Shown here piece by piece: positions 8,635-13,281 of a stretch of 64,000 nucleotides of DNA. Below the pieces are notes generated by a model. The model had not been told where the DNA came from and did no database searches. It saw only the letters and a list, made by a program, of their open reading frames with translations. This stretch comes from Streptomyces sp. LBL (lineage in GTDB: Bacteria; Actinomycetota; Actinomycetes; Streptomycetales; Streptomycetaceae), in NCBI RefSeq assembly GCF_029893585.1, contig NZ_JARXYX010000046.1:1-64000 (forward strand). The letters are read 5' to 3'. The position numbers and the translations under genes are program-made. Each line of letters opens with the position of its first letter. Within the stretch, counting starts at the first letter, position 1.

Positions 8635-9606
8635 ATGCGGCGCAGGGGTGTCACGCGGGACGACGGCACGTGGGTGGGCCTGTCCCTGGAAGTGCAGGAC
8701 CGCCACCAGCCGGGGCTGTGCGTGTTCACTGCCGGTGCGCAACTGCTGGTCTCCCAGATGTCGCAGCCTGTGCTGCTCGCCGTCGTCGATAAGCAACACG
8801 AGGGCGTGGACTTCTGGCGCACCGACGGGTACCGCTCCTTCGTCCCGCCCTTGCGTGCTGATGCGGGCCGCGCCCTGGCGGGCAGCCCGGAACGGTGGGC
8901 CCACCGTTTTGCGCAGTACCTCATCGACTCGCCGGGCAGTCCGTTGCACGAGGGCCGGTGGCTGCTCTCGTGCGAGAGTCCGCCCCAGCGCTGGCGCCAC
9001 GCCGACGCCTCGCATGCCGAATACTGGAACTCGATGCTCGTCGACGGCCATCCAAACGGCTACATCGACTGGTTCCTCCATACTCATTCGTGGGAGGTCC
9101 TGCCGCTGCGGCCGATGCCCGGTGCCGACGACAGCCGGGTCAAGGCGTACCGCAAGCAAGCCCGTGAAGGGACACTCCCGCTCGAGGCGGTCACCCGGTG
9201 CGAGGGCAGCACGGGCTCGATGACCTCACGGTTCGCCGTGCTCGAAGTCCGGCCGTCGGGCAAGGAAGCGTCCCGCACCGCCCAGCAACAGGCCGGCGGA
9301 CGCAGGCGGGACGGTGTCCTGCCGCTGCGGACCCTGCTGGTCGAACAGTCCGCCGAAGCGGCTCATCCGAACGGCTGCTGGACGACCAACCTACCCACGT
9401 GTCGGCGTCCGGACTTCTCTCCCCAGTTACGTACAGACGAACATCCCCAGCTGTCAGGCCACTTCAGTCTCGCGATTGATGGCCTTGAGCCGGCCGTGAT
9501 CCGGCCGCTGCCGCCGGTGCCGGCCTGGCTGCGCGGGCCGCCGGGCGGCGCGCTCCCTGCCGTACGTCCGGGACGGATGGCAGGGAGCTCAGGATTCAGC
9601 GGGTGA
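8635..9606 (+). CDS. Unrecognised protein, possibly with a read-through C-terminus
   Basis: I do not recognise this gene. From the ATG at 8635 it encodes about 323 residues. The first 240 look globular (WVGLSLEVQDRHQPGLCVF, then HEGVDFWRTDGYRSF, then SHAEYWNSMLVDGHPNGYID). No signal peptide or membrane segment is seen. The last 40 codons run through a terminator hairpin belonging to the opposite-strand gene at 9596 and look non-native, so the original C-terminus was probably replaced by rearrangement near 9370-9480. An in-frame start at 8554 exists but the intervening residues look random. Confidence 0.45.
   Translation: MRRRGVTRDDGTWVGLSLEVQDRHQPGLCVFTAGAQLLVSQMSQPVLLAVVDKQHEGVDFWRTDGYRSFVPPLRADAGRALAGSPERWAHRFAQYLIDSPGSPLHEGRWLLSCESPPQRWRHADASHAEYWNSMLVDGHPNGYIDWFLHTHSWEVLPLRPMPGADDSRVKAYRKQAREGTLPLEAVTRCEGSTGSMTSRFAVLEVRPSGKEASRTAQQQAGGRRRDGVLPLRTLLVEQSAEAAHPNGCWTTNLPTCRRPDFSPQLRTDEHPQLSGHFSLAIDGLEPAVIRPLPPVPAWLRGPPGGALPAVRPGRMAGSSGFSG
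9552..9588 (-). terminator. Terminator hairpin downstream of the S8 peptidase fragment
   Basis: Perfect 10-base arms GCTCCCTGCC (9552-9561) and GGCAGGGAGC (9579-9588) with a 17-base loop. It lies just past the stop of the minus-strand peptidase fragment, as expected for its transcription terminator. Confidence 0.6.
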
Positions 9607-9876
9607 GGTGGGCGTTGAGGATGGTCTGGACGGTGCGGTTGCCGTCGGCGTCGACGGCGGTGGCGCGCAGGGACACGGAGCTGCCGGCGGCCGGGTTGTG
9701 GACCTCCACGCCGGAGACGTCTCCCGGGCCGTCGTGGACGGTGCTCCAGTTCTTTCCGCCGTCGGCGGAGGCCTCGACCTTCAGCGAGGCGGCCGTGCCG
9801 CCCTGGACGGTCACCGGAACCCGGAATCGTTTCCTTCCGGCGGGCGCCGTGTTGTCCGCAGCCAGGAGCGTGGGTC
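9596..9876 (-). pseudogene. C-terminal fragment of a secreted S8 (subtilisin-like) peptidase
   Basis: About 90 residues matching the C-terminal beta-sandwich that many Streptomyces S8 peptidases carry. Features are VEASADGGKNWSTV for the wound-strand motif, SVSLRATAVDADGNRTVQTI, and a short tail before the stop. The catalytic domain is absent. The fragment ends at about 9876, exactly where the left 33-base inverted repeat of the RidA/HxlR element begins. That is consistent with insertion or rearrangement at that point. Confidence 0.7.
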
Positions 9877-9957
9877 AGTAACTGTGACTGAGCACGCTGG
9901 TTGGCCGCTGGGCGCCGTAGTTGGTCATTTCGGCGCTCATGGGCAAAGAGCACCTGT

Positions 9958-10365
9958 TCAGTCGAGGACCGCAGTGGCTTCGATCTCGACCAGATGGTCG
10001 AGGACATCCAGTGCCGCAACGCCGATCAGCGTGGTCGGCGGGGCCGGGGCGATCCCCAGCTTCGCGGCTGCCCGGGAGATCCCTTCCAGGAGCGGGGGCA
10101 TCTTGTCGGGGGTCCAGTCGACGACGTAGAAGGTCAGCTTCGCCACGTCGCCGAAGGAGCCACCGACCTCGGCCAGGGCGGTGCCGACGTTGAGATAGCT
10201 CTGCTCGACCTGGGCGGCGAGGTCGCCTTCGCCGACCGTGACTCCCTCGGCGTCCCAGGCGACCTGCCCGGCGATAAAGACCAGTCTCGACCCGGATGCG
10301 ATCGACACCTGCCGGTAGACGTCGATCTTGGGCAATCCGCTGGGGTTCATAAAGGTGATGGCCAT
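9958..10365 (-). CDS. RidA-family (YjgF/YER057c/UK114) protein
   Basis: A 135-residue RidA-family protein. RidA members are small trimeric enzymes that hydrolyse reactive enamines and imines released by PLP enzymes, or act in degradation pathways. Visible marks are LVFIAGQVAWDAEG, the AQVEQSYLNVGTAL helix and a C-terminal VEIEATAVLD strand with the conserved glutamate. The arginine that anchors imine carboxylates in true RidA is not obvious, so a related subfamily is likely. The ATG at 10365 has GGAGA upstream. It diverges from the HxlR regulator across an operator-bearing gap. Confidence 0.85.
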   Translation of the reverse strand: MAITFMNPSGLPKIDVYRQVSIASGSRLVFIAGQVAWDAEGVTVGEGDLAAQVEQSYLNVGTALAEVGGSFGDVAKLTFYVVDWTPDKMPPLLEGISRAAAKLGIAPAPPTTLIGVAALDVLDHLVEIEATAVLD

Positions 10366-10424
10366 GCTGCCTGTCTCCTCGTCCTGAGCGCCTGTGGGCA
10401 CGCGTCCGCGCCGATCAAGACACT

Positions 10425-10461
10425 CACTCTCTTGTGGTTACTCAGAAACTGTAAGAGAGTG
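10425..10461. promoter_or_regulatory. Inverted repeat between ridA-like and hxlR-like genes
   Basis: CACTCTCTT (10425-10433) and AAGAGAGTG (10453-10461) are perfect 9-base arms around a 19-base AT-richer spacer. The site lies between the divergent starts and is a likely HxlR operator. Confidence 0.55.
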
Positions 10462-10506
10462 GACGCTGACGTGGAAGAACGCACTTTTCAGTGACTGGAG
10501 AACCTT

Positions 10507-10887
10507 ATGGTGACCAAGCAGTTCACAGGCTCGCCCGAGGATGCAGACCTGGCGCGTGCGGGCTCCTTGGCGCGGGAGATCTTCTCCGATGTCGCCAACA
10601 AGTGGGCGTTCCTCATCGTCGAGGGTCTCGGTGATCGCACCCTGCGCTTCAGTGAGCTGCGGAACGAGATCGAGGGCATCAGCCACAAGATGCTCACCCA
10701 GAACCTGCGCATGCTGGAGCGCAACGGCCTGGTCGAGCGCACCGTGTACCCCACCGTCCCACCGCGGGTCGAATACACCCTCACCGAGCCGGGTCAAGCC
10801 CTGCGCGCCACGGTCGACGGAATGTGCGGCTGGACCCACCAGTACTTCGGTCACATCGAGGCCGCCCGCCGCCGCTTCGACGCCTGA
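10507..10887 (+). CDS. HxlR-family winged-helix regulator
   Basis: A 126-residue HxlR-type regulator: IFSDVANKWAFLIVEGLGD, then RFSELRNEIEGISHKMLTQNL (recognition helix), then ERNGLVERTVYPTVPPRVEY (wing). Members often sense reactive electrophiles or redox change through a cysteine. Here the only candidate cysteine is in the C-terminal GMCGWTHQY. The ATG at 10507 has GGAG eight bases upstream. With the divergent ridA-like gene it forms a minimal enzyme-plus-regulator module inside the inverted-repeat element. Confidence 0.9.
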   Translation: MVTKQFTGSPEDADLARAGSLAREIFSDVANKWAFLIVEGLGDRTLRFSELRNEIEGISHKMLTQNLRMLERNGLVERTVYPTVPPRVEYTLTEPGQALRATVDGMCGWTHQYFGHIEAARRRFDA

Positions 10888-11142
10888 CGGCTGGCGCACG
10901 CGCCGCCGTGGGCCTGCCAGCTGCAATGCTCAGAGTGGCCAACCAGCGTGCTCAGTCACAGTAACCGACAACCCGCGTGCGTCTGGTGATCAGTTGTGCG
11001 GGATGATCCCGGTATGCGCGATCAGGAGGGGCTGTTCGAGGTCAAGCCCGAACCGCAGGGTGCCCCTCATCGCCAGCTCCTGACCTGTGGGGCGGCAGCG
11101 CCCTGCGGGCGGCCCGCCGCACTCGTTCGAAGGCACCCCGTC

Positions 11143-11905
11143 ATGCGCTCTCGCCGCTATCCCTCGGACACCACGAACGCCGAATGGACTCTGCTCGAAG
11201 GACTGTTACCCACCCCGGCCTGCGAGACCAGCAAGGGCGGCCGGCCGGAGAAACATCCACGCCGCGAGGTCGTCGACGCGATTCGCTACGTCGTCGATAA
11301 GGGCTGCAAGTGGCGGGCCCTGCCTGCGGATTTCCCGCCCTGGCGCGCGGTCTGGGGGTTCATGGCCTGCTGGGGCAGCCGCCGGGATCATCGGCCAGAT
11401 CCGGGACCATCTCGTCAGACGGATCCGCCGCGACCTGGGCAAAGGCCCCCGCGCGGTCGCCACTGTCATCGACTCCCAGAGGGTGAAAGCCGCCGAGACC
11501 GTCTCCAAGGCAACCTGCAGCTACGACGCGGGCAAGAAAATCAACGGACGCAAGCGCCACCTGGTCGTCGACACCCGCGGACTTCCCCTCATGATCATGG
11601 TCACTCCCGCCGACCTGCACGATGCCGCAGCGGCGAAGCAAGTCCTCTTCCGCCTGCGCCGGATGCACCCTGAGATCACGATTGTCTGGGCCGACTCCGC
11701 CTACGCCGGGAAGTTCGTCGACTGGGCAAAACAGCACCTCAACCTCACGATCAAGCCCGTCAGCCGTCCCGCGAGGGACTACGAACGGCTCATCCAGCAC
11801 TCCGAGACCCTGATCAGCTGGGCCGCCATCACCCTCATGACCAGATGCCTCGCCCGGAAGGGCGCCACCCCCAGCTGGGCAAGAAAGCCGACACAGGCCA
11901 GCTGA
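11143..11905 (+). pseudogene. IS5-family transposase, frameshifted and missing its catalytic Glu
   Basis: The N-terminal part (MRSRRYPSDTTNAEWTLLEG, then KWRALPADFPPWRAVWGF) is in one frame from 11143. The rest continues in the next frame from about 11370 (AAAGIIGQIRDHL). One extra G in TGCTGGGGCAGCC accounts for the shift. DDE residues include TVIDSQRVKA and VWADSAYAGKF. After LTIKPVSRP the sequence jumps straight to RDYERLIQHSETL, whereas the IS5 copy near 61.3 kb has FVVLPRRWVVERTLSW in this place. The segment with the catalytic Glu is therefore deleted and the element is dead. Confidence 0.8.
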
Positions 11906-11948: not shown

Positions 11949-12341
11949 TTAAGCGTCAGCCCTGGTGTCGTACGCCCGCTGGCAGCTCTGGATCTCTCCG
12001 CAGTGGTCGACAGTCCAGTCGTAGAGCCAGCCGAACGGCTCGCGCAGGGACTCGCCCAGGGGTGTGAGCGAGTACTCGACGCCGACCGGTGAGGTCGGCA
12101 GCACCGTCCGCTGAATCATGCCGTTGCGCTCAAGACGGCGCAGCGTCTGCGTGAGGACACGTTGCGTGATGCCCTCCAGACCTCGCTTCAGTTCATTGAA
12201 CCGGGTGGGCCGCACCAGCAGCGCCATCACCATCATCGACCACTTGTCCGCTATCTGGTCGAGGATCGGCCGGCTGGGGCAGTCCGCCCGGAAAACCGTC
12301 CGTGCTTCGGCGTCAACGCCGTACAGATCGGTGTCCTTCAT
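11949..12341 (-). CDS. HxlR-family winged-helix regulator
   Basis: A 130-residue HxlR regulator (ILDQIADKWSMMVMALLV, then RFNELKRGLEGITQRVLTQT, then ERNGMIQRTVLPTSPVGVEY). DCPSRPI near the N-terminus supplies the cysteine that family members commonly use for redox or electrophile sensing. The ATG at 12341 is chosen because the longer frame runs through the operator. It diverges from an enoyl-CoA hydratase-like gene, and the 23-base palindrome between them is the probable operator. It is distinct in sequence from the HxlR protein encoded at 10507. Confidence 0.9.
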   Translation of the reverse strand: MKDTDLYGVDAEARTVFRADCPSRPILDQIADKWSMMVMALLVRPTRFNELKRGLEGITQRVLTQTLRRLERNGMIQRTVLPTSPVGVEYSLTPLGESLREPFGWLYDWTVDHCGEIQSCQRAYDTRADA

Positions 12342-12395
12342 GATCCTAGGTGCTCCCAAAGTGCGTTCTTGACCATCTGGGCGCCGTCGTCGACG

Positions 12396-12418
12396 GTAGG
12401 TATGCATTGCAAACCTAC
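12396..12418. promoter_or_regulatory. 23-base near-perfect palindrome, likely HxlR operator
   Basis: GTAGGTATGCA and TGCAAACCTAC are 11-base arms with one mismatch around a central T. The site lies 55 bases upstream of the HxlR start and 30 bases upstream of the hydratase start, so it could repress both directions. Confidence 0.7.
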
Positions 12419-12447
12419 ATGCCCAGCGGTAACCAATGGAGAACCTC

Positions 12448-13281
12448 ATGACGAACGATGCCTACTCGACCCTGCGCGTGAGCAGCGAACACGGCGTCGC
12501 CCGGATCGTCCTCGACCATCCCCCGGTGAACGCGCTCGGAACGACGATGATGCGTGAGCTGCGGACGGTGCTGACGGGCCTCAGGGACGATCCTTCCGTC
12601 CGCGTGATCGTCTTCTCGAGCGCCGACCCTGAATTCTTCATCGCCCACGTGGACATGCACGTCGGCGAGGAGATGGACGTCCTCCAGGAACTCGCCGCAT
12701 CCGCGCCGGCGGACGTCAACGTGTTCCAGGCGATCGGTGAGCTGATCCGCCACCAGCCCCAGGTGACCATCGTGAAGCTCGCCGGGAAGGCCCGCGGAGG
12801 CGGGGCGGAATTCGTGGCCGCAGCGGACATGGCGTTCGCCGCTGTCGAGACCGCTGGACTCGGTCAGATCGAAGCGCTGATGGGCATCATCCCCGGCGGA
12901 GGCGGAACGCAGTACCTCCGGGACCGCGTGGGTCGCAACCGCGCACTGGAGGTGATACTCACCGCCGACCTGTTCGATGCCGAGACCGCAGCGTCCTACG
13001 GTTGGATCAACCGGGCCCTGCCGGCCGACGAGCTCGACGAGTACGTCGACCGTGTCGCTCGTAACATCGCCGCGCTGCCCGACGGTGTCATCGAAGCAGC
13101 CAAGCACTCGCTGCCCGCCGATGACTTCAAGGAAGGGCTCCTGCGTGAGAACGATGCTTGGGCTTCTACGTTCAGTCTGTCGGCCGCTCAGCACCTGATC
13201 AGCAGGGGCCTGCAGGACGGGGCGCAGACACCGGCCGGCGAACGCGACCTTGAGGGACTGATGCGTAGCGTCGCGCGCTGA
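12448..13281 (+). CDS. Enoyl-CoA hydratase/isomerase family protein
   Basis: A 277-residue crotonase-fold protein. Oxyanion-hole elements are visible in SADPEFFIAHVDMHV and KARGGGAEFVAAADMAF, and GIIPGGGGTQYL is the usual second signature. The catalytic glutamates of true hydratases are not clearly in place, so another crotonase reaction is possible. The start ATG at 12448 follows ATGGAGAACC, whose GGAG serves as ribosome-binding site; the upstream in-frame ATG at 12436 is less likely. It is controlled from the palindromic operator shared with the divergent HxlR gene. Confidence 0.85.
   Translation: MTNDAYSTLRVSSEHGVARIVLDHPPVNALGTTMMRELRTVLTGLRDDPSVRVIVFSSADPEFFIAHVDMHVGEEMDVLQELAASAPADVNVFQAIGELIRHQPQVTIVKLAGKARGGGAEFVAAADMAFAAVETAGLGQIEALMGIIPGGGGTQYLRDRVGRNRALEVILTADLFDAETAASYGWINRALPADELDEYVDRVARNIAALPDGVIEAAKHSLPADDFKEGLLRENDAWASTFSLSAAQHLISRGLQDGAQTPAGERDLEGLMRSVAR

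Follow-up and report, generated by a model that had tools for sequence, protein, structure and literature searches.

The window analyzed here, a stretch of 64,000 nucleotides from Streptomyces sp. LBL, contains a divergent ridA-hxlR gene pair enclosed in a small cassette that is very probably a non-autonomous Tn7-like element, a natural mini-Tn7, which would have been moved in trans and then carried onward by an insertion sequence (IS) of the IS1182 family. Judged by its ends, the transposon family is Tn7-like, an assignment that the preliminary description of this DNA had not made. Transposition in trans, the identity of the helper and the role of the enzyme are the parts of this explanation that we infer from the sequences.

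The cassette spans 9883-10960 (1,078 bp), and its outer edges were fixed exactly by comparison with other genomes; since all cassette copies agree inward from TGTGACTGAGC and vary outward, the edge of the element was set there. The inverted repeats (9874-9909 and 10934-10969) are 92% complementary across 36 nt and contain a 24-nt core that is identical at 24 of 24 positions between the two ends (Table 1). This core forms the sole such pair in the window, shuffled sequences gave no match in 100 trials even with 3 mismatches allowed, and the end pair at 9883/10960 is unique in the 9.35-Mb host genome. The inverted repeats of the preliminary description were thus borne out, as was its statement that a single divergent enzyme-regulator pair stands alone between them: the ends enclose a Rid-family gene and an HxlR gene and nothing else. 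The 33-bp repeat that it had taken as the exact boundary overshoots, the outer bases being GTAAC and IS1182 sequence; because GTAAC is nearly palindromic, the repeat seemed longer than the real element. The ends have the form TGT...ACA with two TnsB-type sites each, spaced by 20 and 22, and the 5-bp target duplication of Tn7-like elements is present, as GTAAC in the window and as TTTGA, CGATG and many more elsewhere. The window cassette encodes no transposase and is thus not an autonomous insertion sequence. None of TnsA, TnsB, TnsC and TniQ is encoded inside it, ridA and hxlR being its only genes, and it was therefore classed as a non-autonomous Tn7-like member.

Table 1. Features of the window, and other cassettes with ends of the same consensus, named by locus
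Feature	Position	Strand	Evidence or remark
Outer part of left inverted repeat of host IS1182-type element (GAGCGTGGGTCAGTAAC)	9866..9882	+	shared by six cassette copies, flanks then diverge
Target-site duplication GTAAC, left copy	9878..9882	.	same 5 bp on either side
Left terminal inverted repeat TGTGACTGAGCACGCTGGTTGGCC	9883..9906	+	24/24 against right end; shuffles 0; recurs at other sites of relatives
Subterminal second TnsB-type site, left, CTGGGCGCCGTAGTTGGTC	9908..9926	+	+20 from first; putative transposase-binding site
Rid-family (YjgF/UK114) protein, 135 aa, cargo enzyme	9958..10365	-	PF01042, 66.9 bits
Imperfect palindrome between divergent genes, candidate HxlR operator	10425..10461	.	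inverted repeat, arms 78% complementary
HxlR-family winged-helix regulator, 126 aa	10507..10887	+	PF01638, 101.8 bits vs gathering score 20.8
Subterminal second TnsB-type site, right, CTGAGCATTGCAGCTGGCA	10915..10933	-	+22; family-wide second-TGAGC count
Right terminal inverted repeat	10937..10960	-	matches left end
Target-site duplication GTAAC, right copy	10961..10965	.	same 5 bp on either side
IS1182-type continuation (leader and truncated transposase start)	10966..11048	+	93% identical to L024 IS, lost past 11048
Degraded IS5-family transposase, neighbor outside cassette	11087..11905	+	PF01609; IS5_3 under cut-off
Isochorismatase-like hydrolase	L135		faint TnsA-like stretch outside its gene
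4.5-kb multi-gene unit	L136		
Complete EF-Tu gene as sole cargo	L139:3948-5572 (G256)		1.6 kb; perfect CCGGC duplication
SnoaL-like protein	L144		
Cargo without assigned identity	L145, L047		
No called gene	L153		
Methyltransferase	L146		
Esterase	L147		
M20 peptidase and Lrp regulator	L148		
Arsenic operon: ArsC-type reductase, aquaporin, ArsN1-like acetyltransferase, ArsI/CadI	L157:1280-4139 (G244)		2.9 kb; duplication ACTAT
TetR and SDR	L127		
Barstar	L036		
5.3-kb unit	L037		additionally encodes a transposase of another family
3.5-kb unit	L038		

The same cassette was found in other genomes. Streptomyces sp. MMG1533 (L032) has the same layout and ends in 1,080 bp with TTTGA on both sides, Parafrankia soli (L023), a member of a different family, has the same layout in 1,115 bp with CGATG on both sides and ends that are 2-4 mismatches off, and a further copy (L024, S. 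hokutonensis) has the GTAAC duplication in common with the window. The target duplications that the preliminary description had proposed looking for were therefore present, perfect and different from site to site, and, as one cassette lies at unrelated sites with differing perfect duplications, it has moved. DNA matches to the cassette occurred in 240 of 393 Streptomyces genomes, and most of the full-length matches in these 393 genomes span only query positions ~76-1005, i.e., from stop codon to stop codon. Since the ordinary homology is usually confined to this interval, the terminal 75 bp and 73 bp belong to the element itself as its transposon ends; as read from these matches, ridA-hxlR is an ordinary Streptomyces gene pair, to which the mobile form adds the two ends. 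Plasmid-borne pairs among the matches listed were all end-less. In the tree, nine Streptomyces mobile copies fell into one fully supported clade together with one end-less entry, while the Parafrankia copy stood outside this clade. Because the Streptomyces mobile copies are mostly one clade, with six at the same IS1182 site, the independent Tn7-type moves of the ridA-hxlR cassette number only about three.

The preliminary description had also suggested looking for cassettes with other cargo, and at least 14 further tns-less cassettes with ends of the same consensus and differing cargo were found. Those listed in Table 1 are end pairs that are flanked by perfect 5-bp duplications and lack tnsA, tnsB and tnsC. 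Ends of the window type were present in 187 of the 393 Streptomyces genomes (reversed-pattern control, 0), and 24 of the 28 opposite-end pairs counted had no tnsB. Single ends identical or nearly identical to those of the window adjoin other cargo (L040, L029 and L030), the L147 esterase is also carried by a complete transposon (L142), and one element (L143) keeps, of the tns genes, a broken tnsA alone. In genome G276, a derivative without tnsB and tnsC stands at two sites, the copies being 99% identical over aligned stretches, which is the best argument from sequence for movement in trans. The G276 derivative also bears on the alternative that survives best, namely that the cassettes are fossils, autonomous Tn7-like transposons that decayed by loss of tnsABC once they had inserted. 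We consider such decay improbable. This derivative is a deletion product that retains a broken tnsA, and several elements have lost one end or have imperfect duplications, as decay would predict; it nevertheless stands at two sites, and the tns-less ridA-hxlR layout, with its short ends, recurs at three sites that are unrelated and differ in their duplications, one of them in another family. Identical deletions at each site are unlikely. One tns-less structure at several sites already largely refutes decay.

Several further arrangements were seen among these elements. Some are arranged back to back, their ends separated by exactly 5 bp (L142:10192/10198, L139:5572/5578, L141:9916/9922, L155:4251/4257 and L050:18562/18568) and share one 5-bp duplication, as if one target position had been reused. 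Target immunity is expected of Tn7, and back-to-back elements are at odds with it. A 245-bp element without genes, nested in a larger cassette at L038:18317-18561, has related ends (TGTGACTGGTCGAGATAGTTGTCA) and is flanked by a perfect CCGGC duplication; it is a Tn7-like MITE. A nearly identical end with the same outer flank, gctACCTC, occurs at L020:4948 (Actinoallomurus) and L030:5232 (Streptomyces sp. Ag109_O5-1), and the L030 copy encloses, by reading only, a dehydrogenase-like enzyme and a divergent TetR-like regulator. The EF-Tu gene of L139 may be an extra one, serving, e.g., in elfamycin self-resistance.

The genus was searched with the TnsA family model. TnsA was called by NF033179 (L035, L142 and L158), TnsB by match to solved TnsB, TnsC by TniB/AAA models and TniQ by PF06527. 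As the preliminary description had proposed for its repeat, ends of the same consensus were found to bound complete transposons that have perfect duplications and carry tnsA, tnsB, tnsC and tniQ: L115 (G124; 17,189 bp, GGTGC duplication, all four genes intact, with cargo), L149 (10,001 bp, TCCCG), L142 (7,925 bp, GCCAC), L158 (13,828 bp, GTGGA) and L035 (14,121 bp, CCTCC), the last with a TnsC that looks frame-shifted. The consensus over 48 family ends is TGTGACTGAGC-C---(A/G)GTTGGC, and 24 of the 48 ends have a further TGAGC at +19 to +22, vs 1.4% in the background. Tn7-like ends are in general marked by arrays of transposase sites (PMC8649781). None of the complete transposons found had ends identical to the 24-nt ends of the window; the closest, L035 and L149, have other bases near positions 22-24 and at one or two further positions (TTGTCA in place of TTGGCC). 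Nor was an exact-end helper found near the single-end copies, in flanking stretches of up to ~20 kb.

TGT...ACA ends with 5-bp duplications also occur in the Tn402/Tn5053 group, and TnsC also matches the TniB model, so the repeats could in principle come from another DDE element of Tn402/Tn5053, IS481 or Tn3 type. We regard this origin as very unlikely, because in every complete element that was closed TnsB is accompanied by a TnsA-type endonuclease, the signature of Tn7-like elements that move by cut-and-paste, and no resolvase-type gene was noticed. Tn3, IS481 and IS1182 were each considered as the source of the inner ends and rejected.

At L035:17728-18306 and L115:669-1448, two complete elements with different cargo (type I restriction; CBASS-like, by reading only) stand beside the same HTH gene in two species. 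The HTH gene is likely their attachment site, and the shared neighbor suggests that the complete elements use TnsD-like homing. The insertion sites of the small cassettes were varied.

The window copy is nested in the remains of a second element. Six GTAAC copies share the left flank GGAGCGTGGGTCAGTAAC (with one base different in L066) and diverge completely beyond it, while the right flank of most GTAAC copies runs into the leader and transposase of an IS. This IS is complete in S. hokutonensis (L024:4935-7688, with CTAG on each side), and its transposase belongs to the IS1182 family (NF033551, 291 bits vs a cut-off of 270). In genomes G167 and G022, IS1182 copies without the cassette are unbroken across the insertion point; these are the empty sites that the preliminary description had called for. 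The shared IS flanks and the empty IS copies indicate that the cassette inserted in the left inverted repeat of IS1182 and later spread with the IS. The full arrangement of an IS1182 with a passenger (both ends, transposase and duplication) is present in L024 but not in the window, where the IS breaks off at 11048. That ridA-hxlR spread solely as an IS1182-type passenger with incidental inner repeats is hardly credible: six copies at one IS1182 insertion point with unrelated outer flanks, and an IS in L024 and G040 that has kept its two ends and is bordered by CTAG left and right, speak for it, but L032 and L023 have perfect 5-bp duplications at the inner repeats without IS1182 sequence, and empty IS1182 copies exist.

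The IS1182 remains also account for the left side of the window copy. The preliminary description had taken the left repeat as the truncation point of an S8 peptidase gene; the cut in the neighboring gene instead lies at the IS1182-type left end (~9865), 17 bp outside the cassette, and the identity of that gene could not be confirmed, the fragment (9596-9862) matching no Pfam family. An empty S8 peptidase site, sought by joining the L024 flanks, was rejected, since these flanks are IS1182 and the real empty site is IS1182 without the cassette. Shortly to the right of the cassette (window 11949-13281), another HxlR gene forms a divergent pair with an enoyl-CoA hydratase gene, and there are no Tn7-like ends around this pair.

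The host genome contains a Tn7-like relic (G000:C31:86831-92338; L058) with an intact-looking TnsB of 768 aa, 61% identical to the TnsB of L035, together with a TnsA fragment and end-like sequence; no tnsC or tniQ adjoins it. A search of the genome found no TnsC of the L035 TnsB subfamily. With a truncated IS1182 and no matching TnsC in the genome, the window copy is probably stranded and immobile unless a helper arrives.

The Rid protein of the cassette scored 34.1 bits against TIGR00004 (cut-off, 106.25) and is thus not a canonical RidA, which leaves the earlier label of a resistance cassette unsupported. The catalytic arginine of Escherichia coli RidA is R105; across ten copies, the motif region of the cargo protein reads PPTTLIGV or near variants, with no Arg. 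Solved (PDB) relatives of the regulator include HxlR, YodB and QsrR. Each of the 10 copies checked has both open reading frames intact, and dN/dS is 0.23 and 0.19, from which we infer that the cargo has been kept functional; on these ratios, both genes are under purifying selection. A plausible function for the pair is that of an autoregulated, inducible detoxification module. Among the open-access papers searched, none relevant to a RidA-HxlR pair was found.

Overall, the preliminary idea of a non-autonomous element mobilized in trans appears well supported by the multiple sites, the related complete transposons, the sister cassettes and the empty sites. In the mechanism that we propose, a divergent Rid-family/HxlR pair with its own promoter region lies between two TnsB-type ends, and TnsA and TnsB, activated by TnsC and a TniQ selector, would be supplied by another element in the cell. 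This helper transposase would recognize the ends in trans, excise the cassette and reinsert it with a 5-bp duplication. One such insertion would have hit an IS1182-family element within its left inverted repeat but spared the outer ends of the IS, so that the IS could afterwards have taken the cassette to further sites as a passenger. The copies at other sites and the sister cassettes point to Tn7 machinery as a means by which Streptomyces move single genes or small operons around. If helpers move cassettes in trans, an actinobacterial genome could gain a regulated single-gene trait with no transposase imported. The cassettes, the helpers and the tandem stacks on one 5-bp target raise questions about end recognition, target immunity and cargo capture, and the arsenic resistance and EF-Tu cargo makes relevance to resistance or to producer self-protection plausible. 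More tentatively, and a little short of an even chance, Streptomyces may keep a large pool of self-contained cassettes, such as an enzyme plus regulator or a resistance operon, that have nothing but Tn7-like ends and would be moved about in trans by a small number of TnsABC-TniQ transposons, at times as tandem stacks on one target position; such an integron-like economy would go unseen in tnsB-anchored surveys.

What this analysis adds to the preliminary description is the Tn7-like family assignment, the nested IS1182 carriage and the size of the cassette class; within the open-access scope given above, we found no description of natural tns-less Tn7-like cassettes, which is weak evidence that none exists. 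Mobile insertion cassettes are defined by inverted repeats, a passenger gene, no transposase, a target duplication and trans mobilization by a related element (PMC3913671). The window cassette has the layout of this definition (repeats, passenger, no transposase and duplication), as have MIC231 of Bacillus cereus and the qnrD/qnrS2 mic elements. Unlike MIC231, which has ends of IS231 (IS4 family), it has Tn7-like ends with repeated subterminal sites, its helper would be a multi-protein TnsABC-TniQ system, and its class looks more varied and common. With the actinobacterial Tn7-like transposons of clade 2 in the TnsB tree of Benler et al. 2021, it shares end site arrays and the 5-bp duplication (PMC8649781); the complete members found in this analysis carry TnsA-TnsB-TnsC-TniQ, whereas the cassette has no tns genes. 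The host phylum points to membership in this clade, the members of which were then without experimental characterization, and since the survey was anchored on tnsB, tns-less units were invisible to it (PMC8649781). In laboratory mini-Tn7 vectors, too, Tn7 ends flank the cargo and the transposase is provided in trans; the cassette, by contrast, occurs naturally in a genome, is apparently under selection and has different end sequences. TIMEs, the Tn3-derived miniature elements, are also non-autonomous elements that have transposon ends and are mobilized in trans, but their ends are of the Tn3 family (PMC4133298), whereas the cassettes hold an intact gene or small operon between Tn7-like ends. 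Like integron gene cassettes, they are small one- or two-gene units that pass from one genome to another and can be arrayed in tandem, and in contrast to these, which use attC sites and a tyrosine recombinase, they have DDE-type ends and 5-bp duplications.
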